A DNA stretch of 45,853 nucleotides from Bacteroidota bacterium (GTDB taxonomy: Bacteria; Bacteroidota; Bacteroidia; Bacteroidales; B18-G4), in the NCBI GenBank assembly GCA_018831055.1, contig JAHJRE010000103.1:1-45853 (forward strand), given 5' to 3'. Positions 30,193-45,637 of this stretch are shown in pieces. The notes below the pieces were generated by a model that did no database searches, had not been told where the DNA came from, and saw nothing but the letters and a program-made list of their open reading frames with translations. Both the position numbers and the translations under genes were made by a program. Positions within the stretch are counted from its first letter, which is position 1. Every line of letters starts with the position of its first letter.

Positions 30193-31560
<1,368 letters not shown>

Positions 31561-31740: not shown

Positions 31741-34700
31741 ATGAAAGAAACTAATGAACCTAACCACGCCTATCAGCGACTAAGGGCCGAGAACATTGAA
31801 AGGTTGAAGGAACTGGCTGCCATCAACCAGACAACCCAGATTTTAAAAGAAAAAAAGCCTGTTGAAGAAACGCTCCAGCAGGTATGCCAGTTACTGCCAC
31901 CGGCCTGGCAGTATCCTGAGTATACTGTCGCAAGAATCCGGTTTGATGGGAAGGAATACAAGTCCAATGGTTTCCTTGAAACATCCTGGGTTATGCAGCA
32001 GATGTTCGAAACAATAGAGGGGAAAAAAGGGACTCTGGAAATCTTTTACACCAAGAAATTCCAGGATCTGGATGAAGGTCCTTTCCTGAAGGAGGAGAGA
32101 CATCTGATCGATAACCTGGCAGGGCTGATAACCGGTTATTTGAACAGTGAAGCCGGATCGAGGTATATTGGTCAACGGAAGCGAAAGGATTTTTACACGG
32201 AGTTTGAGGAATCCCTTTCAGAGCAAAGTCATAGCCGCCGGTTGCTGCAACGCTTCCTGAACAAAAGCAATTACGACCGCGATATTTATCACGACCTTAT
32301 GCCTTTCAAGGTAAGAGAGATACTTCTGGTGGCAAATCTTTATGATGCATACAGCATAGAAAAAGAAGGAAGGTTCTCAGAACATGTACTGGGAGAATAC
32401 CATTCGCTCAATCTAACCTCCATCCCCAGGATCACCGGAGTGTCATCGATGGAAGAAGCCATGGTACACCTTAGAAACCGTCATTTCGATATGGTAATAC
32501 TTATGATGGGAGCCGATAAACACACGCCCATTGGATTAAGTTGTACCATAAAAAAAGAATTTCCTTATATCCCTGTTTTTCTGCTTCTTAATAATAACAG
32601 CGACCTGGAGTATGTCAGCAATACAAAAGCCGCTACAAAACATATAGATAAGGTTTTTGTCTGGAATGGAGAATCCCAGGTGTTTTTTGCCATGATAAAA
32701 CTGGTTGAAGACAAGATCAATGTGGAGAATGACACGGAAATTGGGCTTGTAAGGGTGATCTTATTGGTTGAGGATTCACCCAAATATTATTCCCGGTATC
32801 TTCCCATGCTGTATAACATCGTCCTGGAACAAACCAAAAGGATCATAGACGATGTGAGTACGGATGAATTGTATAAGGTACTTAAGCTGCGGGCAAGGCC
32901 AAAGATACTGCTTGCATCAAGTTATGAGGAGGCTGTAAGGATCATCGAAAAATATAAGGAGTATCTTCTTTGCCTCATTACCGATGTTAAGTTTGAAAAA
33001 GACGGGAAGCAATTGGAAACTGCGGGATTTGAACTGGTAAATTATGCCAGGGTAAATACCAAGGAACTACCCACGATAATCCAATCCTCCGATGAAAGTA
33101 ATGCGGAAAAAGCATTCGAACTCAAGGCAACTTTCATTAACAAGAATTCCGATAATCTTTCCCAGGATTTCCGGAGTTTTATCACTCATTACCTGGGGTT
33201 TGGGAATTTTGTTTACAGGAACACACAGGGAAAACAGATAGCCATAGCCAAATCTCTGAAAGAATTTGAGAAGCAGTTACAAACCATTCCTGACGAATCA
33301 CTTCTTTACCATGCCAGGAAAAACCATTTCTCTCTCTGGTTAATGGCTCGTGGGGAAATCCAGGCAGCAAAGATTCTGAATCCGCATAAGGTGACGGATT
33401 TTCCCAGTCCTCAGGAAATCCGTAACTATATGCTACAAATCATCACGAAATTCAGGAATGAACAGGATAAAGGGAAGATCGTGCCTTTCGATGCGCAGGA
33501 GATTTCTGATGAAAGCAATGTAGTGAGTTTATCGGAGGGGTTGCTTGGCGGGAAAGGCCGGGGAGTAGCATTTATAAATTCCCTGATCTACAATTATGAT
33601 TTCAGCAAGTATGTTCCGGGCATTCATATCCGGTCACCAAAAACTTCTTTGATAGGGACAGAAGAGTTTGAATATTTTCTTTTCAGGAATAAATTACTGG
33701 ATTTCGTGATCAACGAAAAGGATTACGATGAGATCAAGAGGGTATTCCTGAAAGCGGAGTTGACCGATACCCTGATGAAGCGTCTGAGGGTGCTTACGGA
33801 AAAAATCCGCAAACCGCTTGCAATCAGGTCATCCGGGTTGTTTGAAGACTCACTGATGCAACCCTTTGCCGGGATTTTTGAGACCTATCTTTTGCCGAAC
33901 AACCATCCGGATGCCAGAGTAAGGCTGGAGCAAATTGCCAATGCCATCAAGTTGGTATATGCATCCACTTATTCCAATGTTGCAAGGGGATATGTAGAGG
34001 CCATAGATTACAGGATTGAGGAGGAGAAGATGGCGGTAGTAATTCAGGAAGTTGTGGGTTCGCAATACGGGGATTATTTTTATCCGCACATCAGCGGGGT
34101 CGCTCAATCCTTTAATTATTATCCGGTTTCTCACATGAAGCCGGAAGAAGGATTTGGTATTCTGGCCCTGGGTCTTGGGAAATATGTTGTTGAAGGGGAA
34201 AAGGCATATCGTTTTTCGCCCAAATACCCTGATCTAGAGATTAATTCACCAAAGGATACATATAAAAATTCGCAGGTTGAGTTCTTTGCTGTTGATATGA
34301 AGAAGAAAAATCCGGATTTGATGGAAGGGGATACGGCAGGATTAGCGCGAATTGATATTGATGTTGCAGAGAGGCATGGAACGCTTAAGCATTGTGCATC
34401 CGTTTACGATCCTGAGAGCAACCGCATTGTACCCGGATTGAATGCCACCGGCCCCAGAATTGTTAATTTCGCCGATGTATTAAAATATAAATACATTCCC
34501 CTGGCTGAGACCCTGGAAGTAGTATTGGATGTAGTGAAAGAAGCAATGGGCTGTCCTGTTGAAATAGAATTTGCCGTTGACCTGAACAAAGACCGGCAAT
34601 ACAAAGCCTCTTTCTATCTTTTACAGATAAAGCCTTTACTGGGGAATGCGCTGGATTACAACGTGAATCTTGATAAGATCCATGATGACGATATTTTGCT

Positions 34701-35196
34701 TTTTTCTGAAAAAGGAATGGGCAATGGAATAATTGAAGATATATCGGATGTGATCTACATTGACAGGAACCGTTTTGACAAAACCAAAACGATGGAAATG
34801 GTTGAGGAAATCAACCGCCTTAATACCAAGATGCACGCTGAAAAGAGGAAATATATCCTGATAGGACCTGGCCGCTGGGGTACGCGGGATCGCTGGATCG
34901 GAATCCCGGTTGCCTGGCCACAGATATCCTCTGCAAAAGTGATCGTGGAAACCAGCCTGGAAGACTTTCCGTTGGATGCATCCTCCGGCTCACATTTCTT
35001 TCACAATGTTACATCAATGAACGTAGGTTACTTTTCCGTTCAGCCGGAAGTGTCGAAGAGCTATGTACGTTACGAACTATTAGATAATCAGGAGCTTATT
35101 GAAGAAACAAGGTATTTTCGGCATGTTCGTTTCCGGAATCCATTGGTTGTAAGAATGGATGGAAGAAAAAGGATTTCGGTGATCACACTGAAATAA
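31741..35196 (+). CDS. PEP/pyruvate-binding ATP-grasp protein with receiver-like domains
   Basis: A 1151-residue cytosolic protein. The N-terminal 140 residues look GAF-like. Two receiver-like regions follow, one at about 190-320 and one beginning VILLVEDSPKYYSR (339 onward), with an aspartate in ITDVKFEKDG (D415) at the phospho-acceptor-like position. Residues about 600-1000 are the PPDK/PEP-synthase N-terminal ATP-grasp domain: LLGGKGRGVAF near 603 and RSSGLFEDSLMQPFAGIFETY near 696. The C-terminus has a conserved GPGRWGTRD (1042-1050) and GSHFFHNVTS. The phosphohistidine swivel (GG-x-T-SH) and TIM-barrel PEP domain of true PEP synthase are missing, so normal PEP synthesis is unlikely. It may use ATP for a regulatory or different phosphotransfer. 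It is divergent from gdhA across 195 bp. Confidence 0.85.
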   Translation: MKETNEPNHAYQRLRAENIERLKELAAINQTTQILKEKKPVEETLQQVCQLLPPAWQYPEYTVARIRFDGKEYKSNGFLETSWVMQQMFETIEGKKGTLEIFYTKKFQDLDEGPFLKEERHLIDNLAGLITGYLNSEAGSRYIGQRKRKDFYTEFEESLSEQSHSRRLLQRFLNKSNYDRDIYHDLMPFKVREILLVANLYDAYSIEKEGRFSEHVLGEYHSLNLTSIPRITGVSSMEEAMVHLRNRHFDMVILMMGADKHTPIGLSCTIKKEFPYIPVFLLLNNNSDLEYVSNTKAATKHIDKVFVWNGESQVFFAMIKLVEDKINVENDTEIGLVRVILLVEDSPKYYSRYLPMLYNIVLEQTKRIIDDVSTDELYKVLKLRARPKILLASSYEEAVRIIEKYKEYLLCLITDVKFEKDGKQLETAGFELVNYARVNTKELPTIIQSSDESNAEKAFELKATFINKNSDNLSQDFRSFITHYLGFGNFVYRNTQGKQIAIAKSLKEFEKQLQTIPDESLLYHARKNHFSLWLMARGEIQAAKILNPHKVTDFPSPQEIRNYMLQIITKFRNEQDKGKIVPFDAQEISDESNVVSLSEGLLGGKGRGVAFINSLIYNYDFSKYVPGIHIRSPKTSLIGTEEFEYFLFRNKLLDFVINEKDYDEIKRVFLKAELTDTLMKRLRVLTEKIRKPLAIRSSGLFEDSLMQPFAGIFETYLLPNNHPDARVRLEQIANAIKLVYASTYSNVARGYVEAIDYRIEEEKMAVVIQEVVGSQYGDYFYPHISGVAQSFNYYPVSHMKPEEGFGILALGLGKYVVEGEKAYRFSPKYPDLEINSPKDTYKNSQVEFFAVDMKKKNPDLMEGDTAGLARIDIDVAERHGTLKHCASVYDPESNRIVPGLNATGPRIVNFADVLKYKYIPLAETLEVVLDVVKEAMGCPVEIEFAVDLNKDRQYKASFYLLQIKPLLGNALDYNVNLDKIHDDDILLFSEKGMGNGIIEDISDVIYIDRNRFDKTKTMEMVEEINRLNTKMHAEKRKYILIGPGRWGTRDRWIGIPVAWPQISSAKVIVETSLEDFPLDASSGSHFFHNVTSMNVGYFSVQPEVSKSYVRYELLDNQELIEETRYFRHVRFRNPLVVRMDGRKRISVITLK

Positions 35197-35371: not shown

Positions 35372-36235
35372 ATGTATGATTTCATTTCACTAAAACTGAA
35401 ATGTCCCTTGTGTGGAACTTCCCTGATGGATTATGACCACATGGTAGACAATGAGCCCAGCATTTTTATGCATATCGATATTGGGGAAAAAAAGGGTAAT
35501 ATATGGCTTAGTTCTATTTATGGGAGTTATAATTATGATACGGATATTGAGATGCCCCGTGGTGAAATTGCCCGCTTCAATTGTCCGCATTGCAGTAAAC
35601 ACATCACATCAAAAACTGAATGCCTCACATGCGGTGCCGATATGGTTCCTCTTTACCTTGATATGGGAGGTAAGGTTTCTTTTTGCTCCAGAAGCGGGTG
35701 TAAGAATCACTTCGTTGAGTTTGAAGACCTTTCCGTAGCCATGAAACGTTTATACCAGGAGTATGGATATGCAGGGAAGCATTTCCTGGAACATTCCTAT
35801 AGCGCCCCTGAGAAAAAGCCGGAAAAGCGGGATGAAGTAAAGGAAATCATAGAATCAGGAACATTTTTACATGGGTATTGTCCGATTTGCAAGAAAAGTC
35901 TCATTGAAGACGAAATGCTTAAACTAAAGATCACCAATGGAGAGGAAGGGATTTTAATGCTGAGCCCATACCTGAACGTATTTACGTCAAAATCAACGAT
36001 ATTTCTGCCTGAAGACAAGGTTGTTAATGACCTGAGTTGTTTCCATTGCAACACAAGCTTGATCGACACGGGGCATCGTTGTCAGAAATGTGGTTCGCCT
36101 GTTGCAAAGATATCCGTTACCGCGCGTACCAAGCTGATCGATTTTTTCATTTGTACCAAGAAAGGATGCCGGTGGCACGGGTTAAGCAAGGATGACCTAT
36201 ATGATATCCGGCTGGGAGACAGTATGGAATGGTAA
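35372..36235 (+). CDS. Cys-rich protein with two zinc-ribbon-like modules
   Basis: A 287-residue protein that I cannot match to a named family. It contains two copies of one Cys/His module. Module A has C11/C14, C71/C74, C84/C87 and C105/C110/H113. Module B has C170/C173, C223/C226, C237/C240 and C261/C266/H269. A third copy is the N-terminus of NfnB at 37088. The four paired motifs (CPxC, CxHC, CxxCG, Cx4Cx2H) suggest two metal sites per module, zinc or iron-sulfur. The start at 35372 is chosen because it opens directly into module A; an ATG at 35303 would add a hydrophobic stretch over AT-rich promoter-like DNA. nfnA starts 16 bp after its stop, so it probably belongs to the Nfn system. Confidence 0.8.
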   Translation: MYDFISLKLKCPLCGTSLMDYDHMVDNEPSIFMHIDIGEKKGNIWLSSIYGSYNYDTDIEMPRGEIARFNCPHCSKHITSKTECLTCGADMVPLYLDMGGKVSFCSRSGCKNHFVEFEDLSVAMKRLYQEYGYAGKHFLEHSYSAPEKKPEKRDEVKEIIESGTFLHGYCPICKKSLIEDEMLKLKITNGEEGILMLSPYLNVFTSKSTIFLPEDKVVNDLSCFHCNTSLIDTGHRCQKCGSPVAKISVTARTKLIDFFICTKKGCRWHGLSKDDLYDIRLGDSMEW

Positions 36236-36251
36236 AACTAAATCCAACATT

Positions 36252-37076
36252 ATGTTTCAGATTGTAAGAAAACAAGAAATGGCCATGGGAACGATCATCC
36301 GTTTCGATATCATGGCCCCGAAAATAGCGGCAAAGATCAAATCCGGCCAGTTTGTCATTATAAGAGTCAATGAAACCGGTGAGCGAATCCCCCTTACAGT
36401 TGCAGATAAAGATTCCTTTGCCGGGATAATCACCATCATTTTTCAGGTCGTTGGTAAGACAACGGCCTTAATGCGTTCTCTGAAGGAAGGTGATTTTATA
36501 AAAGACGTAGTAGGACCGCTTGGAAAACCTGCAGAAGTGGAAAATGTTGGTACAGTAATAATGGTGGGCGGAGGTACCGGGGTGGCTATCCTCCATCATG
36601 TAGCCAAAGCCTTCAAGGAAGCGGGTAATTATGTAATTGGAATCATGGGTTCACGCTCAAAGGATATGCTTATCCTGGAGAATGAGATGACACAGATTTG
36701 CGATGAACTGGTTATTACAACCGATGATGGCTCCTACGGGCAGATGGGTTTTGTAACCGATCCTTTGAAGAAGTACCTCGATGAAAGATATGATATAAAG
36801 CTTGTATATGCAATCGGGCCGATTATCATGATGAAAAACGTGGTAAACCTTACCAAAAAATATACTATTCCGATAATGGTCAGCCTGAATCCTATCATGA
36901 TCGATGGGACGGGCATGTGTGGGGGATGCAGGGTAAAAGTGGATGACCAGACCATGTTTTGTTGTGTCGACGGGCCTGATTTCGATGGTTATAAAGTTGA
37001 TTTCGACGAACTGATGAAAAGGAATTCGCTCTACCTGAAAGATGAAAAAGATTCATTGCTTTTCTCAATCCGATAA
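36252..37076 (+). CDS. NfnA-like ferredoxin-NADP reductase alpha subunit
   Basis: A 274-residue FAD/NAD-binding protein of the PyrK/NfnA type (sulfide dehydrogenase or ferredoxin-NADP reductase alpha subunit). The FAD-binding ERIPLTVAD is near residue 40, VIMVGGGTGVAILHHVAKA is the NAD-binding loop, and the C-terminus carries a [2Fe-2S]-type GTGMCGGCRVKV with FCC nearby. NfnA pairs with NfnB to couple NADH, NADPH and ferredoxin. nfnB follows 11 bp later. The start at 36252 (MFQIVRKQ) is chosen over one at 36192, which lies inside the previous gene. Confidence 0.9.
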   Translation: MFQIVRKQEMAMGTIIRFDIMAPKIAAKIKSGQFVIIRVNETGERIPLTVADKDSFAGIITIIFQVVGKTTALMRSLKEGDFIKDVVGPLGKPAEVENVGTVIMVGGGTGVAILHHVAKAFKEAGNYVIGIMGSRSKDMLILENEMTQICDELVITTDDGSYGQMGFVTDPLKKYLDERYDIKLVYAIGPIIMMKNVVNLTKKYTIPIMVSLNPIMIDGTGMCGGCRVKVDDQTMFCCVDGPDFDGYKVDFDELMKRNSLYLKDEKDSLLFSIR

Positions 37077-37087
37077 TCCAAATTTCT

Positions 37088-38902
37088 ATGCTCGATCCGA
37101 ATGTTAAATACCTGAAGTTTAAAACCTACCTTCAGACTTATTGCCCACATTGCAAAAATTCATTGAATTTTGAGAATAAGGACAAGAAGCAGATCCATTT
37201 CAAATCCATCTACAAAGGTGAACCTTTTGATTTGTATCTCAGCCCCTATCTTGATGTGTTTGAAATAGAAACCACACTCCCTATCCAGGCAGGGGAAAAC
37301 GTGGATGATTTTCTTTGTCCGCATTGTGGTAAGAGCCTGATCCATACCGATATCAATTGTGCAGAATGTGGCTCTCCTGTGGCCGAAGTAACGGTTTCCG
37401 CCCTGTCAAGGTTGATCACATTTTTCCTTTGTACAAAATATGGTTGTGAATGGCATGGATTAACGAAAAGGGATGAAAGGAATATTAAATTAAAGATTCC
37501 CCGCCAGGATATGCCGGAACAGGATCAGACACTGAGGGTACATAATTTCCAGGAAGTCCCGTATGGTTATACTACAGAATTAGCTTTGCTGGAAGCAGGC
37601 CGTTGCCTTCAATGTAAAAATCCGGGATGTGTGGACGGTTGCCCCGTGAATGTGAAAATTCCTGAGTTTATTGCGCTGGTTGCCGAGGAAAAATTCGATG
37701 AAGCCGCCAAGAAAATCAAAGAAAGGAATGTGTTCCCGGCAATATGCGGAAGGGTTTGTCCGCAGGAAAGCCAGTGTGAATCAAAGTGCATTTTAGGTTA
37801 TAAAGACAAACCTGTTGCTATTGGAAGGCTGGAAAGATTTGTCGCTGATTTTGAACGAAAGATGGATCTGGTAAGAGTCCCGATAGTCAAGGATAATATA
37901 GGCATGAGCATTGCGGTGATAGGATCTGGTCCGGGTGGGCTCACCGTAGCTTCGGATATGCGCCAACTGGGCTATAATGTTACTGTTTACGAGGCTCTCC
38001 ATGAAACCGGAGGTGTATTGACATACGGCATCCCGGAGTTTCGTCTTCCAAAATCCATTGTGCAGTTCGAGATTAATTACCTGAAGGAAATGGGTGTTCG
38101 CTTTGAACTGAATCACGTTATCGGAAATATTCTTACCATTGAAGAACTGCTCGAGCATTTCAACGCAGTTTTCATTGGCGTTGGGGCCGGCCTTCCAAGA
38201 TTTATGAATATTGAAGGGGAAAGCCTGGGGAATGTTTTTTCGGCAAATGAGTATCTTACCAGGATGAATCTGATGAAAGCCTATAAATTCCCGGAATACG
38301 ATACACCCAAACCACGAGGTAATAAGGTCGTAGTTGTTGGTGGAGGTAATGTTGCCATGGATTGTGCCAGGACGGCCAAAAGGACGGGCGCCAATGAAGT
38401 GACCGTTGTTTATCGCCGGTCAAGGCATGAACTTCCTGCCCGAGCCGAAGAAGTCCATCATGCCGAAGAAGAAGGGATCCGGTTCAAACTGCTTAGCAAT
38501 CCGGTCAGGTATTTAGGAACAGATAACAATGCCGTTAAAGCCATCGAATGTATCCGGATGGAACTTGGAGAACCCGATGCAACCGGAAGAAGAAGACCCG
38601 TTCCTGTGAAAGACTCCAACTTTGTGGTTGAATGCGATATGGCCGTCGTAGCTATTGGTACCGGCCCCAATCCCATTATTTTTCAATCAACTCCCAACCT
38701 TGAAGTAAATAAATGGGGTTATATCAATGTAAATCCTGAAACCAATGAAACAAGTATCCCTTATGTTTATGCAGGAGGAGATATCGTTACGGGATCTGCA
38801 ACCGTGATTGAAGCTATGGGGGCCGGAAGGATTGCTGCCCGAGCTATGCACGAAAAACTGACTCAGAAAACACAGAAGAAAAAAAGTGTTAAAGCCGGGT
38901 AA
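37088..38902 (+). CDS. NfnB/GltD-type flavoprotein with N-terminal Cys-rich module
   Basis: A 604-residue protein. Residues 1-140 are the third copy of the Cys-rich module (C19/C22, C77/C80, C91/C94, C115/C120/H123). From about 160 it is the NfnB/glutamate-synthase small subunit family: a two-cluster [4Fe-4S] domain with C173LQC, GCVDGCPVNVKIP and ICGRVCPQESQCESKC, then FAD-binding VIGSGPGGLTVAS, YGIPEFRLPK, and NADP-binding VVGGGNVAMDCARTAKR with VVYRRSRHELPAR. In family members this binds FAD and NADPH and exchanges electrons with NfnA. The usual length is about 460-470, so the extra 140 residues are a fusion. It probably forms NfnAB with the upstream gene, but the annotation glutamate synthase small subunit cannot be excluded; no large GltB subunit is present. 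Confidence 0.9.
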   Translation: MLDPNVKYLKFKTYLQTYCPHCKNSLNFENKDKKQIHFKSIYKGEPFDLYLSPYLDVFEIETTLPIQAGENVDDFLCPHCGKSLIHTDINCAECGSPVAEVTVSALSRLITFFLCTKYGCEWHGLTKRDERNIKLKIPRQDMPEQDQTLRVHNFQEVPYGYTTELALLEAGRCLQCKNPGCVDGCPVNVKIPEFIALVAEEKFDEAAKKIKERNVFPAICGRVCPQESQCESKCILGYKDKPVAIGRLERFVADFERKMDLVRVPIVKDNIGMSIAVIGSGPGGLTVASDMRQLGYNVTVYEALHETGGVLTYGIPEFRLPKSIVQFEINYLKEMGVRFELNHVIGNILTIEELLEHFNAVFIGVGAGLPRFMNIEGESLGNVFSANEYLTRMNLMKAYKFPEYDTPKPRGNKVVVVGGGNVAMDCARTAKRTGANEVTVVYRRSRHELPARAEEVHHAEEEGIRFKLLSNPVRYLGTDNNAVKAIECIRMELGEPDATGRRRPVPVKDSNFVVECDMAVVAIGTGPNPIIFQSTPNLEVNKWGYINVNPETNETSIPYVYAGGDIVTGSATVIEAMGAGRIAARAMHEKLTQKTQKKKSVKAG

Positions 38903-39100: not shown

Positions 39101-39619
39101 ATGCGAATTACACGAATCAATCCGGAACTGGAAATAAGGAAAAACGGTTCGGAGGACTTATCTCTCATGGATGATCTTATTGCGAAATACAAGGGCAAAA
39201 AGGGGAATATGATTCCTCTTCTCCAGGGGACACAGAGTATATACGGATATATACCCAGGGAAGCTTTTGAAAAGCTCGCGGCAGAAACGGGCCTTGAGTT
39301 GAGCGATATGTATGGAGTAGCCACTTTTTACGCGCAGTTTCGTCTGAATCCGGTGGGCAAACACATCATCAAGGTATGCCACGGCACTGCATGCCATGTT
39401 CAGAATGCCAAGGCTGTCACTGATTCACTCAAGGAGGCATTGAAGGTCAGTGATGGTGAGACAACGGAAGACGGATTATTTACGCTTGAATCGGTTGCCT
39501 GTCTGGGTTGTTGTTCGCTTGCACCGGTTATGATGATAGGGGAAGAAACTTACGGCAAGCTTACCGGCACCGAGGCTGTCAAGATTATCAAGAATATAAA
39601 AATCCGGGAAAGTAATTAG
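39101..39619 (+). CDS. NuoE-like [2Fe-2S] subunit (HydC/HndA type)
   Basis: A 172-residue thioredoxin-like iron-sulfur protein of the NADH dehydrogenase 24-kDa family. After a helical N-terminus (LLQGTQSIYGYIPREAFEKLA), the [2Fe-2S] ligands are C93 and C98 in KVCHGTACHV and C134 and C138 in CLGCCSLAPVMM. Such subunits partner NuoF-like flavoproteins in respiratory complex I, hydrogenases and bifurcating enzymes. It is the first gene of the three-subunit operon; the nuoF-like gene begins 35 bp later. Confidence 0.92.
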   Translation: MRITRINPELEIRKNGSEDLSLMDDLIAKYKGKKGNMIPLLQGTQSIYGYIPREAFEKLAAETGLELSDMYGVATFYAQFRLNPVGKHIIKVCHGTACHVQNAKAVTDSLKEALKVSDGETTEDGLFTLESVACLGCCSLAPVMMIGEETYGKLTGTEAVKIIKNIKIRESN

Positions 39620-39654
39620 GATCCATGTAACCATAATCACGAAAAAATCACAGA

Positions 39655-41439
39655 ATGTCAATGGAAAAGACTAAAGTAATCGTAGGATTGGGGAGTTGTG
39701 GGATCGCTGCAGGAGCTGCCAAGGTTTACAATAAGATCAAGGCTTTGCAGGAAGCAGAGAATCTCGACTTCGAGCTTAAAAAAACCAGTTGCATCGGGAT
39801 GTGTTACAGGGAGCCCCTGGTGGAGATCCTGGATGAATCGGGGTCATATCTTTATGGTGATCTTGATGAGGAGAAGATCATAGAGGTTATTGATAAGCAT
39901 ATCGGGCAACATAGTCCTGTGAAGGAATACGTTGTGCATACGGATCTGTATGAGACTGTTGACACAACCTTCACCAAGGATCAGGTAAAGATTGCGTTAC
40001 GTAATTGCGGATACATCGACCCGGAGAGTATTGAGGAATATGAAGCTCGCGACGGGTACCGTGCGTTGAAAAAGATTGCAGGTCAGCGCATGTCGAGGCT
40101 TGATGTGATACAATCGGTACTGTCTTCAGGATTGCGTGGCCGCGGCGGTGGCGGTTTCCCGACAGGTTTAAAATGGAAATTTGCCAACAACAATAAAGCT
40201 AACGAAAAGTATATCATTTGCAATGCTGATGAAGGAGACCCGGGAGCCTTCATGGATCGTTCCCTTCTTGAAGGTGATCCTCATGCAGTGCTGGAAGGTA
40301 TGATCATTGGTGCATACGCCATTGAAGCTACCGGAGGCGTCATTTATTGCAGGGCCGAATATCCTCTGGCCATCAAGCGTTTGAATATTGCTATTGAACA
40401 GGCCAGGAAAAAAGGTTATCTCGGCAAGGGCATCCTGGGGATGGACGATTTTGATTTCGATATCTATATCAAGGAAGGAGCAGGAGCTTTTGTATGCGGT
40501 GAAGAAACCGCTCTCATTGCTTCAGTGGAAGGACAACGCGGAATGCCTCGCAAAAGGCCGCCTTTTCCGGCTGCATCCGGCTTATGGAAAAAGCCTACCA
40601 ATATCAACAATGTTGAGACTTTTGCCAATATTCCCTGGATCATCCTGAACGGCGCCGAAGAATACGCCAAATACGGAACCGAAAAAAGTAAAGGCACAAA
40701 AGTGTTTGCCCTTGCCGGAAAAATCAAACGTTCAGGACTTGTGGAAGTTCCAATGGGCATGAGTATCCGCGATGTTATCTTTAAACTGGGCGGTGGGATC
40801 AAAAATGATAAGAAATTCAAGGCCGTCCAGATGGGTGGTCCTTCCGGAGGCTGTATCCCTGAGTATCTTGCCGATACTATCGTTGATTATGATTCTGTTA
40901 ATGCTACCGGGGCCATCATGGGTTCGGGAGGTATGGTTGTGATGGATGAAACCACCTGCATGGTTGATGTTGCCAAGTTTTTCCTGGAATTTACCCAAAA
41001 AGAATCCTGTGGCAAATGTACTTTTTGCAGAGTAGGTACGAAAAGGATGCTGGAGATTCTGCAAAGGATCACCGAAGGCAAAGGAGAAGAAGGAGATTTA
41101 GATAAACTGGAAGAACTGTCGTACCAGATCAAAGACAATTCGCTTTGTGGATTGGGACAAACGGCGCCAAATCCGGTTCTTACCACTATCCGGTATTTCC
41201 GGGATGAATATGAAGCTCATATCCGTGATAAAAAATGCCCGGCTCTGGTTTGTACAGCATTGTTGACCTATACGGTTGATCCGGATAAATGCACCGGATG
41301 TACGGTTTGTGCAAAGAATTGTCCGGTGGATGCCATTGAAGGAGACCGGAAACAACCTCATTTTATAAAACAGGATGTTTGTATTAAATGCGGCATGTGC
41401 TACTCGAAATGTAAGTTTGATGCCATCATACTATCATAA
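39655..41439 (+). CDS. NuoF-like FMN/NADH subunit (HydB/HndC type)
   Basis: A 594-residue flavoprotein. The N-terminus is an additional thioredoxin-like [2Fe-2S] domain (C15, then C46 and C50). The middle is the FMN/NADH module: GLRGRGGGGFPTGLKW, NADEGDPGAFMDRSLLEGDPH and AGAFVCGEETALIASVEG. A [4Fe-4S] site follows with C452/C455/C458 and C498. The C-terminus is a two-cluster ferredoxin (C546/C549/C552/C556 and C576/C579/C582/C586). This arrangement is that of bifurcating or NAD-linked hydrogenase HydB rather than respiratory NuoF, which lacks the extra N- and C-terminal domains. ATG 39655 is used; 39661 is an alternative. Confidence 0.94.
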   Translation: MSMEKTKVIVGLGSCGIAAGAAKVYNKIKALQEAENLDFELKKTSCIGMCYREPLVEILDESGSYLYGDLDEEKIIEVIDKHIGQHSPVKEYVVHTDLYETVDTTFTKDQVKIALRNCGYIDPESIEEYEARDGYRALKKIAGQRMSRLDVIQSVLSSGLRGRGGGGFPTGLKWKFANNNKANEKYIICNADEGDPGAFMDRSLLEGDPHAVLEGMIIGAYAIEATGGVIYCRAEYPLAIKRLNIAIEQARKKGYLGKGILGMDDFDFDIYIKEGAGAFVCGEETALIASVEGQRGMPRKRPPFPAASGLWKKPTNINNVETFANIPWIILNGAEEYAKYGTEKSKGTKVFALAGKIKRSGLVEVPMGMSIRDVIFKLGGGIKNDKKFKAVQMGGPSGGCIPEYLADTIVDYDSVNATGAIMGSGGMVVMDETTCMVDVAKFFLEFTQKESCGKCTFCRVGTKRMLEILQRITEGKGEEGDLDKLEELSYQIKDNSLCGLGQTAPNPVLTTIRYFRDEYEAHIRDKKCPALVCTALLTYTVDPDKCTGCTVCAKNCPVDAIEGDRKQPHFIKQDVCIKCGMCYSKCKFDAIILS

Positions 41440-41464
41440 ACCAAAACAATAAGACTCTTCAAAA

Positions 41465-44400
41465 ATGAGTGAACAAGTAAATGTCATTTTAAACGGAAAG
41501 ATCATCACGGGATACAGGGGAGAATCGATTCTTGACCTGGCAGCAAGATATGGTATTGAAATACCGACACTATGCCATGATCCCCGTCTCGAACCGTATA
41601 CTTCCTGTTATGTTTGTGTGGTGGAAATCGAAGGCTTAAGGGGGCTTCAACCCTCATGCTCAACAAAGATTTCCGAAGGGATGCGCATAGAGACCGATAA
41701 CGACCGTATCCATAAGGCCAGAAAGACTGCCCTGGAACTGCTCTTGAGTAATCACTACGCTGATTGCCTTGGCCCCTGCACTCAGGCTTGTCCCGCCGGA
41801 GTTGATGTTCAGGGATATATATCCCATATTGAAAAAGGGCAGTATCATGAAGCAGTAGCCCTGATAAAGGAAACCAATCCTCTTCCAGCCATTTGCGGAA
41901 GGGTTTGCGTAAGGCCATGTGAGGTTGCCTGTCGCAGGAATCTTCTAAATGAAGGTGCCCCGGTTGGGATAGATTACCTCAAGAGGTTTGTTTCGGATTA
42001 TGACCTTGAATCTCCCGACAAGTGGAAACCTGATGTAAAACCATCAACGGGGAAAAAAGTTGCTGTGATTGGTGCCGGTCCCGGCGGTTTGTCCTGTGGA
42101 TTCTTCCTGCAGAAAGAAGGCCATCAGGTAGATATCTTCGAGGCCGGTCCAAAAGCCGGAGGCTGGCTCCGTTATGGTATTCCCGAGTACAGGTTGCCCA
42201 ATGATCTGCTTCAGAAAGAAGTTGATAACATCACTGAGATGGGAGTGAAAATCTCCTATAAAAAAAGGCTTGGAGATAACCTGAAATTTAAGGATATCAA
42301 GGATAAATACGATGCATATATTCTTGCCATCGGTTCTCAGAAAGGAACCCTGATCGGTTGCGAAGGTGATGATGCCGAAAATGTATTCTCAGGGATAGAC
42401 TTCCTGAAAAGCATGGAACTGAATGGTACAAAATATGATTTTTCAGGAAAAAATGTTGCTGTTGTAGGAGGCGGGAATACTGCCATGGACTGTTGCCGTA
42501 CATCCCTGCGTTGCGGTGCCGGTAAAGTTTACGTTATTTACCGTCGTACGGAAAAGGAAATGCCGGCCAATCCGATCGAGATTCACGAATCGAAGCTGGA
42601 AGGTGTGGAATATCTGTTTCTTACTAACCCTACACGGGTTAACAAGGATAAGGAAGGGAAGGTAAAATCGATAACTTGTCTTAAGATGGAACTCGGCGAA
42701 CCCGATGCTTCCGGAAGACGCCGTCCTGTTCCAATTCCGGATTCAGATTTTGATCTGGAGGTGGATGTCATCCTGGCTGCCATTGGTCAAAAAACTGAGA
42801 TAAACTTTCTTGATGACGTAAACAGCTGTTATAAGAATGGAAGTGAGCTGAAGGCAAATCGTTGGGGAGATATTGAGGCGGATCACCATACATTACAAAC
42901 GGGAATTAAAAATATGTTTGCGGCAGGTGACGGTGTAACAGGTCCTGCCACCCTTATCCAGGCCATCGGGCAGGCAAGGGTAGCATCACACAGTTGTAAC
43001 CTTTATCTGAATGGGATGGAAGTTGTTCCCATGAAGAAGGAATTTATCAGTCGTAAAGAACATTTCAAGAAACAGGTTTCCGAAGACTATATCGGTCACT
43101 TTCCTGAACAAAGCAGGGAGGAAATGCCTACTTTGCCACCTGAAGACCGGAATAATTTCAAGGAGGTGGAACTGGGTTATGCCGGCGAGGATGTGGCTAA
43201 GCACGAAGCGGCACGATGTCTGGAATGTGGTTGTACCGAGATTTACACATGTGATCTTAAAAAGTATTCCACGCATTATGAAGCGAATCAGAATCATTTT
43301 GCCGGGGAATTTAAGGAGTATCGGGTGGATTTCCGGCATCCATATATAGAGATTGATAACAATAAGTGCATACTTTGTTCCCGTTGTATCAGGATTTGCC
43401 GCGATGTAGTAGGAGCCGATGCTTTAGGCCTCATCAACAGGGGATATGAAACCTATGTTGCTCCTGCCCTTGGAGATTCCCTGCAGGATACATCCTGTGA
43501 GAGCTGTGGGATGTGTATCAGCACCTGCCCTACCGGAGCCATTTCCGAAAATGTATTGTTTAAGCCAGGTCCGGTTAAAACGACTGAAGCTGATACTATT
43601 TGTAATTATTGTTCAATAGGATGCAGCATTACATATCATCACAAAAACCAGTTCGTGATGAGGGTAACAGGAAACGATGGGCTTGTCAATACGGACGGGA
43701 ACATCTGCCGTTTTCCAAAATTCGGTTATCATTTCATGAACGACCGGAACCGGATTAAGAAACCTCTTTATAAGATCAACGGACGTTTCGAAGAGATAGA
43801 AATGGACGAGGCGGTGAGAATAATCCGCGAAAGGACCAGTAGCTGCCTGCCGGGAGAGAATGCCTTCTTTGCAGGCGCCAGGCTTACCAATGAGGAATTG
43901 TATCTTATTCAAAAACTTGCCCGTGCAGGTTTGAAAACCAACAATATTTCAAGTTTCCATTACCTGAACCGCGGGGATGGATATCAGATGAATTCCACGG
44001 CTAACGTTCCTTTTGATCAGATCAGGGGTGCAAGCAAGATATACCTTATTGGATCCGAAATAAATATGGATAACGCGGTTCCTGGTTTTATCATCAATAA
44101 TGCCCGGATCCGGAAAGGGATACCGGTCGACCTTGTGACCATACATCCGGAAAGCCGCATGAAACATAAGGTGGATAAGGTTGTTGAGATTAAGTCCTAC
44201 TATCACTTCATCAAAGCACTGAATTATTACCTCGTTGCCAACCACTTCGAAAACGGCATGTTTTTAAAAGATAACTGTACCGGCTTTGAAGAGTATAAGG
44301 AAGCCCTTCTCCAGGAGAATTTTGTTGAGCTTGTGGAAAAGTCGGGTGTTCCCTATATGGATCTTGTTGTGGAGTTTGCCAAGGAGATCAATAACCAGAT

Positions 44401-45169
44401 GAATGCTGTTGTGGTATTCTCCGAGAAGGAATTGTCGGCCAATGCCTGCCGGGAACTGTTCAATCTTTCGCTCATCACCGGTAAACTGGGCAAGACTTCC
44501 TGCGGTATCATTTCATTAAAGGAGAAGAACAATGCCGAAGGTTTGTTCAACATGGGTATCCGGCCTTCCATCGGGATTGGCGGTGTATCTGTTACGGATG
44601 CCGATCAGCAAGCCAGAATGATGAAAAAATGGGGTGTTGATTCCTTCCCGGAAAACGGACAAAGTACTTTATTTACTTCACTTGAATCAGGAAAACTGAA
44701 GAATGTATTCATTTTTGGGGAAGACCCACTCGGATGTGCTATAAACAAAGTACAGGTTGCCGGTTGGTTATCGGTTTCGGAATTTGTAGTAGTACAGGAT
44801 TATTTCATGACCGAAACGGCCCGTCATGCGGACCTCATACTACCCGCTTCGTTCCCGGTAGAGATTGGAGGCAGCTTCACGAATACTCAAAGGAGCATAC
44901 AGGATTTCGAGGCAGTATTTGTTCCTCAAACTGAGGTAACCTCATTAGAGCAATTGGTTCGTTTGCTTAATGAATATGGTATCAAGCAGGAACCAGACGC
45001 GAAGGATATTTTCCAGGAAGCTGTAAGCCTGTTGCCGGTAAAGCAGGAAATGAGCTATCCCCTCATTTATACTGCAAAAGATAACGATTTCCGCATCTTT
45101 AACTACGGTTGCGATTATGTTGTAAAACGATTCGAAGAAGATTTCAATAAAGCATTTCTTGTTAAGTAA
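41465..45169 (+). CDS. NfnB/NuoG-like fusion subunit with molybdopterin-oxidoreductase-like C-terminus
   Basis: A 1234-residue iron-sulfur flavoprotein. Order: [2Fe-2S] domain (C37, C48, C51, C65); NfnB/GltD-type [4Fe-4S] region (C101, C105, C109 and C144, C148, C152, C156); FAD motif VIGAGPGGLSCG at about 201 and NAD(P) motif VVGGGNTAMDCCRT; Cys cluster C585/C588/C590; two ferredoxin clusters (C635/C638/C641/C645 and C678/C681/C684/C688); then a molybdopterin-oxidoreductase fold starting CNYCSIGC (C713). The last region, close to formate dehydrogenase/NuoG, has at about 826-835 ISSFHYLNRG where catalytic Cys or selenocysteine is expected. No H-cluster domain exists. Formate dehydrogenase and hydrogenase activity are thus unlikely; a transhydrogenase or bifurcating role with the two upstream subunits is inferred. 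Confidence 0.88.
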   Translation: MSEQVNVILNGKIITGYRGESILDLAARYGIEIPTLCHDPRLEPYTSCYVCVVEIEGLRGLQPSCSTKISEGMRIETDNDRIHKARKTALELLLSNHYADCLGPCTQACPAGVDVQGYISHIEKGQYHEAVALIKETNPLPAICGRVCVRPCEVACRRNLLNEGAPVGIDYLKRFVSDYDLESPDKWKPDVKPSTGKKVAVIGAGPGGLSCGFFLQKEGHQVDIFEAGPKAGGWLRYGIPEYRLPNDLLQKEVDNITEMGVKISYKKRLGDNLKFKDIKDKYDAYILAIGSQKGTLIGCEGDDAENVFSGIDFLKSMELNGTKYDFSGKNVAVVGGGNTAMDCCRTSLRCGAGKVYVIYRRTEKEMPANPIEIHESKLEGVEYLFLTNPTRVNKDKEGKVKSITCLKMELGEPDASGRRRPVPIPDSDFDLEVDVILAAIGQKTEINFLDDVNSCYKNGSELKANRWGDIEADHHTLQTGIKNMFAAGDGVTGPATLIQAIGQARVASHSCNLYLNGMEVVPMKKEFISRKEHFKKQVSEDYIGHFPEQSREEMPTLPPEDRNNFKEVELGYAGEDVAKHEAARCLECGCTEIYTCDLKKYSTHYEANQNHFAGEFKEYRVDFRHPYIEIDNNKCILCSRCIRICRDVVGADALGLINRGYETYVAPALGDSLQDTSCESCGMCISTCPTGAISENVLFKPGPVKTTEADTICNYCSIGCSITYHHKNQFVMRVTGNDGLVNTDGNICRFPKFGYHFMNDRNRIKKPLYKINGRFEEIEMDEAVRIIRERTSSCLPGENAFFAGARLTNEELYLIQKLARAGLKTNNISSFHYLNRGDGYQMNSTANVPFDQIRGASKIYLIGSEINMDNAVPGFIINNARIRKGIPVDLVTIHPESRMKHKVDKVVEIKSYYHFIKALNYYLVANHFENGMFLKDNCTGFEEYKEALLQENFVELVEKSGVPYMDLVVEFAKEINNQMNAVVVFSEKELSANACRELFNLSLITGKLGKTSCGIISLKEKNNAEGLFNMGIRPSIGIGGVSVTDADQQARMMKKWGVDSFPENGQSTLFTSLESGKLKNVFIFGEDPLGCAINKVQVAGWLSVSEFVVVQDYFMTETARHADLILPASFPVEIGGSFTNTQRSIQDFEAVFVPQTEVTSLEQLVRLLNEYGIKQEPDAKDIFQEAVSLLPVKQEMSYPLIYTAKDNDFRIFNYGCDYVVKRFEEDFNKAFLVK

Positions 45170-45181
45170 AAATTATTGACC

Positions 45182-45637
45182 ATGAGAGAATTCAAATCAA
45201 TTGACGATATTCTGGATTTTGCCATCGATGAAGAACAAAAGGCTGTCGATTTTTACACCAGCCTTGCTTCTAAAGCTACTTCCGATGATATGAGAAAAGT
45301 GTTTGAGGAGTTTGCCGGAGAAGAGGTAACACATAAGATGCGACTTGTCAAAGTCAAGGAAGAAGGTTTGTATGAGATGAAACCCGAAAAGGTAGCCGAT
45401 CTTCGGATCGTAGATTTCCTGGTTAATGTAAAACCTACACCCGACATGACTTACCAGGACGCCCTGATAGTTGCCATGAACAAAGAAAAAGCAGCTTTTA
45501 AACTTTATATGACACTTTCCGATAGGGCTGAAAGTTCCCAGATGAAAGAATTATTTCTTGGACTGGCCCAGGAAGAATCTAAGCACAAACTTCGTTTTGA
45601 GCTCGAATACGACGAGTATGTTTACCGGGAAAACTGA
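45182..45637 (+). CDS. rubrerythrin-like ferritin-family protein
   Basis: A 151-residue four-helix protein of the rubrerythrin/ferritin superfamily. Paired iron-ligand motifs are seen: DEEQKAVDFY then EEVTHK in the first half, and MNKEKAAFKLY then EESKHK in the second. The C-terminal rubredoxin domain (CxxC pair) of classical rubrerythrins is missing. Such proteins often remove peroxide or store iron in anaerobes. The start is the ATG at 45182; a TTG two codons upstream (45176) is possible. It follows the fusion gene by 12 bp, so it is probably in the same operon and may protect the iron-sulfur complex. Confidence 0.87.
   Translation: MREFKSIDDILDFAIDEEQKAVDFYTSLASKATSDDMRKVFEEFAGEEVTHKMRLVKVKEEGLYEMKPEKVADLRIVDFLVNVKPTPDMTYQDALIVAMNKEKAAFKLYMTLSDRAESSQMKELFLGLAQEESKHKLRFELEYDEYVYREN

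Follow-up and report, generated by a model that had tools for sequence, protein, structure and literature searches.

A predicted StnABC/Nfn-Bfu-type electron-bifurcating transhydrogenase encoded next to a zinc-ribbon-bearing NfnAB in a Bacteroidota bacterium

The window, a 45,853-nucleotide stretch of DNA from a Bacteroidota bacterium, encodes at positions 39101–45169 what we read, with a probability of roughly 0.87, as a complete electron-bifurcating transhydrogenase of the StnABC/Nfn-Bfu type, its activity being predicted from homologues (Table 1). The architecture of its large subunit StnC, the conserved ligands, the replaced active-site residues, and the fold are established here. A preliminary description of the same DNA had presented this subunit as a fusion protein devoid of both an H-cluster and the expected Mo/W ligand; such a state is the normal, characterised one of StnC, and the label 'formate dehydrogenase' and the like, given in databases to StnC-type proteins, are misleading.

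Table 1. Genes and parts of the Nfn-Stn locus (positions are those of the window)
Feature	Position	Strand	Basis or remark
Two-copy zinc-ribbon protein	35372..36235	+	likely start ATG 35372; listed ORF from 35303
NfnA (FAD/NAD + [2Fe-2S] subunit, classical Nfn)	36192..37076	+	NF004862, 387 bits, cut-off 220
NfnB of classical NfnAB, with 135-residue zinc-ribbon N-terminal extension	37088..38902	+	
StnA (BfuC/NuoE-like), thioredoxin-like [2Fe-2S] subunit	39101..39619	+	2Fe-2S_thioredx and NuoE matches
StnB (BfuB/HydB-like), FMN-NAD(H) subunit that has the additional Fe-S clusters seen in bifurcating members	39655..41439	+	
StnC (BfuA of the Nfn-Bfu enzyme), 1234 aa	41465..45169	+	Pfam, NCBIfam, PDB matches 9bov_A, 8oh5_C, 9n5u_A
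FdhF-like half, StnC residues 700–1234	43562..45166	+	FDH alignments, Pfam, conservation, AlphaFold2 model
Rubrerythrin/ferritin-like protein	45182..45637	+	conserved diiron ligands; TTG 45176 is the listed ORF start

Architecture and affinities of the subunits

The StnC reading frame is open across 1234 residues and is no chance frame, because full-length orthologues, mostly 55–74% identical, occur in many genomes. The protein combines a [2Fe-2S] domain, a GltD/NfnB-like FAD-NADPH module, a dicluster ferredoxin, and a degenerate FdhF-like half, and the single-protein fusion originally described is thus real, as judged from the orthologues and from Pfam domains in both the N-terminal (Fer2_4, 3–79; Fer4_20, 103–182; Pyr_redox_2, 197–504) and C-terminal parts (Fer4_Nqo3, 626–693; Molybdop_Fe4S4, 708–759; Molybdopterin, 763–1157). 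The same Pfam search found no Fe-hydrogenase (H-cluster) domain in StnC, in agreement with the reported lack of an H-cluster, and the best stretch against the NCBIfam family FeFe_hydrog_A6 spans only the N-terminal Fe-S part of that family. The best PDB relatives are 9bov_A (810 bits; titled 'electron bifurcating Nfn-ABC complexed with NAD from Caldicellulosiruptor saccharolyticus'), 8oh5_C (742 bits; the 1172-aa StnC of Sporomusa ovata), and 9n5u_A (637 bits). The best matches are thus characterised Stn/Nfn-ABC complexes, and the kinship with Sporomusa StnABC that had been suggested in the preliminary description holds. The fusion of [2Fe-2S], GltD-like, and NuoG/FdhF-like parts in a protein of about 1170 aa, which marks the StnABC/Nfn-Bfu enzymes, is found in StnC, and Kumar et al. 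2023 (PMC10482914) likewise describe the S. ovata protein as a NuoG domain with a GltD fold fused into it. Stn-like enzymes are classed as Type 1 Nfn-Bfu, and BfuB proteins of this kind have been reported from Bacteroidetes among other phyla (Schut et al. 2022, PMC9304861).

The small subunits agree with this assignment. The NuoE-like and NuoF/HydB-like genes lie adjacent to StnC, as had been noted, and StnB finds its best PDB match in the StnB chain 8oh5_B (877 bits across residues 7–593), with the Cys residues of the N-terminal [2Fe-2S] domain, of B1, B3, and B4, and of the HxC..C site conserved; its Cys motifs are likewise conserved in an alignment to 8oh5_B, 9bov_B, and 9n5u_B. The extra clusters B2–B5 of BfuB and the [2Fe-2S] cluster of BfuC, by which the Bfu family is recognised (Schut 2022), are present. 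Judged from these sequences, the sites predicted earlier for NAD(H) in the HydB-type subunit, for NADP(H) in the GltD part, and for ferredoxin are supported.

Residues of S. ovata StnC were mapped onto the present protein from the alignment to solved structures, and conservation was scored over 32 sequences for the mapped residues and over 17 for the Fe-S motif set. K170, close to the FAD-proximal cluster C7, has been reported as essential and strictly conserved in StnC, NfnB having a Glu there (PMC10482914); it corresponds to K173 here, while R239 (near the FAD) and Y117 correspond to R243 and Y118, each of the three being invariant in 32/32 sequences. The Lys and Arg are those of StnABC/Nfn-Bfu enzymes; conversely, StnC departs from classical NfnAB in having Lys, not Glu, at the proximal cluster and a Stn core in place of NfnA. 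The motif HxxxCxxxCxxxCP (97–110), C144/C148/C152/C156, and C585/C588/C590/C596 (CxxCxCxxxxxC, 585–596) are invariant in 17/17 sequences, and the eight dicluster cysteines (635–688) in all 32. The ferredoxin clusters of the preliminary description are therefore present, but its count of two was too low, more Fe-S motifs having been found.

One mapped residue is changed: C114 is V115 here, with Val in 28 and Ile in 4 of the 32 sequences of the clade. In S. ovata, Cys114 is an alternate ligand of cluster C7 and the C114A mutant loses half its activity, and Val or Ile occupies this position in two homologues according to Kumar et al. (PMC10482914). We counted the substitution against the Stn reading, though Cys114 is a non-defining residue.

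Set beside the characterised systems, the locus resembles StnABC of S. ovata (PDB 8oh5/8oh9; Kremp 2020, Kumar 2023) in its NuoE-like, NuoF/HydB-like, and GltD+NuoG fusion genes and in a large subunit with an inactive FdhF-like half and the K170, R239, Y117, and Fe-S motif residues; it differs in a StnC about 60 residues longer, in the C114 to V115 change, and in the classical NfnAB encoded immediately upstream of the Stn genes, S. ovata being without Nfn. Nfn-ABC of C. saccharolyticus (9bov/9bp5), the best overall PDB match, is alike in domain order and length (1178 aa), but it keeps the Cys at the C114 position and comes from another phylum (Firmicutes). The Nfn-Bfu/Nso of Thermococcus (9n5u; Schut 2022), a Type 1 Bfu with an NADP(H)-binding BfuA, shares the Val at the C114 position, whereas its BfuA has only 963 aa with a truncated C-terminal half and an incomplete set of the cluster C2 cysteines that the present protein keeps. 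Classical NfnAB (4ylf, 5jca) shares the GltD-like FAD/NADPH module and the net reaction but differs from Stn in its bifurcation site, in its subunits, and in having Glu where Stn has Lys at the proximal cluster.

The FdhF-like half of StnC

FdhH residues K44, U140, H141, and R333, which we take to be the catalytic residues of formate dehydrogenase, fall on F750, N835, R836, and K1019 of StnC in alignments to solved formate dehydrogenases, so that all four are replaced. The motif SFHYLNRG, previously placed near residues 826–835, is present at 830–837, and the claim that Cys or Sec is missing from the Mo/W ligand site stands, the position being N835. Across the 32 sequences this residue can be N, G, K, D, E, Q, or F, so that no ligand is conserved there; a Sec/Cys ligand at another place in the active site was rejected on the alignment. 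Molydop_binding (PF01568) gave no Pfam match in StnC at E 0.001. StnC accordingly has none of the features that define FdhF, viz., the Sec/Cys-His pair, Lys44, Arg333, and the C-terminal Molydop_binding domain.

The fold was modelled with AlphaFold2 for residues 590–1234 only, from 19 input sequences (mean pLDDT 79, pTM 0.82); pLDDT is mostly above 85–90 in the FdhF-like part and below 50 in the first 114 residues, which hold the dicluster part, here modelled out of its context. The model matches formate dehydrogenases with Z 36–38, 9bov_A with Z 36.2 (2.6 Å, 504 residues), and 8oh5_C with Z 31.5 (2.7 Å, 461 residues), and it aligns to FdhH only as far as residue 608/715, in keeping with a predicted absence of the C-terminal cofactor domain. 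As the C-terminal model superposes on the same domain of StnC and of 9bov_A, and as StnC is itself a GltD+NuoG fusion whose inactive FdhF-like half is already present in 8oh5_C (PMC10482914), the 'extra NuoG-like half' of the preliminary description is no difference from StnC. A new three-site enzyme was also rejected on alignment. In sequence, the C-terminal half alone scores higher against the active formate dehydrogenase 8rqz_C (178 bits) than against StnC (140 bits), an observation that we counted against the Stn reading.

These data bear on whether StnC might instead be a Mo/W oxidoreductase, such as a formate dehydrogenase, whose metal has an unusual ligand and which feeds electrons to the Bfu core, the NADPH module serving as a second port. 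The FdhF-like fold lacks only its last domain and can be superposed on active enzymes, and the NCBIfam model TIGR01591 (Fdh-alpha) gives a weak match (254 bits against a cut-off of 666). Moreover, the genome makes molybdopterin (MoaC is present), so that a Mo/W site cannot be dismissed for want of cofactor alone, and an absence of molybdopterin synthesis, considered as an argument against one, fails. However, a shared fold says nothing on function; the argument rests on the active-site replacements, with the ligand position varying freely and Molydop_binding unmatched. It is joined by the state of the cluster that would feed the site (C713, C716, C720, C748; the name C1 is deduced from the text of PMC10482914), all four Cys of which are lost in 3/32 relatives and one in another. 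Further, formate oxidation was assayed in S. ovata Stn and none was found (Kremp et al. 2020, PMC7483475). We accordingly hold a Mo/W enzyme to be extremely improbable.

For the StnABC reading, the natural variants are of interest in their own right: the lineages without C1 bear on the role of clusters C1 and C2 in StnC, their sequences suggesting that some lineages can do without C1, whereas alanine substitution in S. ovata broke assembly.

Predicted reaction and redox context

From the characterised homologues we infer the reaction, its direction, the bifurcation site, and the structural role of the FdhF-like half. The enzyme would catalyse NADH + 2 Fd(red) + 2 NADP+ + H+ <-> NAD+ + 2 Fd(ox) + 2 NADPH. 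In StnC, the FAD of the GltD-like module would be the site where NADPH is oxidised or formed, the StnC Fe-S clusters would pass single electrons to the FMN in StnB, and NAD(H)/ferredoxin bifurcation would take place at that FMN together with StnA. The FdhF-like half, without a catalytic Mo/W site, would be a structural remnant aiding assembly; in S. ovata this part (683–1172) is catalytically inactive and required for tetramer assembly (Kumar et al. 2023, PMC10482914).

RnfC, another HydB-type subunit, and a HoxF/NuoF-type subunit are also encoded in the genome, which yielded no PntA above the cut-off; this complement fits carrier balancing by ferredoxin-linked enzymes in an anaerobe. TonB plug and CarboxypepD_reg domains and a sub-threshold Por_Secre_tail match are also found in the genome and point to a probable member of the Bacteroidota.

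Linkage of Stn to a modified Nfn

The less expected point is that Stn has beside it the genes of a second, unrelated enzyme that catalyses the same reaction. The gene order is zinc-ribbon protein, NfnA, NfnB with its zinc-ribbon extension, StnA, StnB, StnC, and rubrerythrin. NfnB matches 4ylf_B best (550 bits) and keeps the NfnB-type Glu (LERF), which, along with the NfnA match, identifies the pair as classical NfnAB. The domain in the NfnB extension is the same as that found twice in the upstream protein, for which no known fold was recovered (best Foldseek E 0.011; model pTM 0.44). A terminator was not found in the 198-bp gap between nfnB and stnA, nor was a match to the Bacteroidota-type promoter pattern, the terminator and promoter scans performing no better than shuffles.

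The rubrerythrin-like protein has its diiron ligands conserved in 18 sequences, and its gene comes next after StnC in 11 loci of the first inspected set and next after NfnB where Nfn is downstream, a pattern spanning many families. Such a partner, along with the status of Nso as the closest archaeal relative (PMC7483475), would suit a Stn that, instead of working as a transhydrogenase, uses NADPH to reduce an external acceptor (sulfur, polysulfide, O2, or peroxide via the rubrerythrin), a role that has been claimed for the Nso of Thermococcus. Against this, the bifurcating core of StnB is fully conserved together with its ferredoxin clusters, Kremp et al. argue that Nso could be a transhydrogenase too (PMC7483475), and the enzyme of Thermococcus sibiricus has been described as a genuine Nfn-Bfu (PMC9304861). 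We therefore regard this alternative as very unlikely, and a transhydrogenase remains the preferred reading.

Across 295 genomes of the same order, StnC relatives (E ≤ 1e-180, nearly all of similar length) occur in 100 and NfnA in 192, with both in 36 and neither in 39. The odds ratio for co-occurrence is 0.14 (p ~1e-13, uncorrected for phylogeny), i.e., Stn and classical NfnAB tend to avoid sharing a genome, in agreement with their almost mutually exclusive distribution in acetogens (Kremp et al. 2020, PMC7483475) and Thermococcaceae (Schut et al. 2022, PMC9304861). Nevertheless, in 17 of the 36 genomes with both, Stn and Nfn lie on one contig and strand within about 15 kb (Nfn upstream in 13, downstream in 4), against about 0.4% per genome expected from random placement, an approximate value that takes no account of relatedness. 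The zinc-ribbon form of NfnB was seen in 26/30 inspected Stn-bearing genomes versus 1/13 Stn-less ones. In the open-access subset of the literature searched, no paper was found on a Stn-Nfn linkage with zinc ribbons or rubrerythrin.

This tight linkage against a background of general mutual exclusion suggests that Stn and the modified Nfn are not simply redundant, and the gene linkage indicates that Stn is probably used together with the dedicated adjoining NfnAB and the rubrerythrin-like protein. Both the linkage and the manner in which the NfnB extension tracks Stn, with the two-copy version adjoining, could be accommodated if Stn and Nfn were subunits of one larger physical complex joined by the zinc-ribbon domains rather than separate enzymes. 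However, Nfn is absent from the vicinity of many orthologous StnABC operons, StnABC of S. ovata works alone, and the zinc ribbons may serve stability or regulation instead; a single complex of this kind thus appears unlikely.

We tentatively raise the possibility, somewhat doubtful at present, that Stn and the specialised, zinc-ribbon-tagged NfnAB, with a rubrerythrin output, form one coupled redox module in the order, co-encoded and co-regulated or physically joined, that balances NADPH, NADH, and ferredoxin both ways. What is still of interest at the locus is this linkage of Stn, Nfn, zinc ribbons, and rubrerythrin, together with the loss of cluster C1 in natural variants. If the module were real, two mechanistically different bifurcating transhydrogenases that catalyse the same reaction, and that otherwise avoid each other, would be coupled in it.

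FdhF-like domains and the C1 cysteines

At three loci of other genomes (L049, L050, and L065), the StnC-type C-terminal FdhF-like domain is encoded apart from the remaining StnC parts, and no StnC was found in either of the two genomes with a solo version (L049, L050). The L050 protein also lacks the C1 cysteines, i.e., those of the FdhF-half [4Fe-4S] cluster. The StnC relatives of L020, L024, and L026 are full-length, yet all four of these cysteines (equivalents of 713, 716, 720, and 748) are gone. Whereas these versions naturally lack the entire set, alanine replacement of the C1 or C2 cysteines breaks tetramer formation in S. ovata StnC.

Features in the window and in loci of other genomes
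Locus	Position	Strand	Feature
L049	7642-9273		Solo FdhF-like protein, 543 aa; homologous to StnC C-terminal half
L050	4322-5887		Solo FdhF-like protein, 521 aa; homologous to StnC C-terminal half
L065	1446-3275		Further FdhF-like copy, adjoining rubrerythrin; homologous to StnC C-terminal half
L044	5883-12790	-	NuoE, NuoF, NuoG-like, NfnA, NfnB (five genes)
Window	30193-31545		Glutamate dehydrogenase, adjoining PPDK_N protein
Window	31741-35196		1151-aa protein with PPDK_N ATP-binding domain
Window	35372-36235		Stand-alone two-copy zinc-ribbon protein
Window	37088-37492		Single-copy zinc-ribbon domain, N-terminus of NfnB
Window	45182-45637		Rubrerythrin/ferritin-like gene, after StnC

Unfused Bfu and Nfn subunits

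The NuoG-like protein of the L044 cluster (785 aa) has a degenerate FdhF half, with the ligand site reading NNIDLSPTYNDR. In this cluster, the Bfu and Nfn subunits are not fused to one another; it adjoins a zinc-ribbon gene and occurs in a genome that also possesses StnABC.

Neighboring genes

The zinc-ribbon domain of the window spans ~135 residues in both its contexts; its Pfam matches are to zinc ribbons, mostly below threshold, and Foldseek recovered no clear PDB relative. One-domain forms adjoin StnC in L036 and L042. The rubrerythrin/ferritin-like gene, with all diiron ligands present, is kept in many families of the order. The PPDK_N protein, a second paralog of which lies downstream of StnC/Rbr in L029 and L032, and the glutamate dehydrogenase both occur near StnABC in several other families as well.
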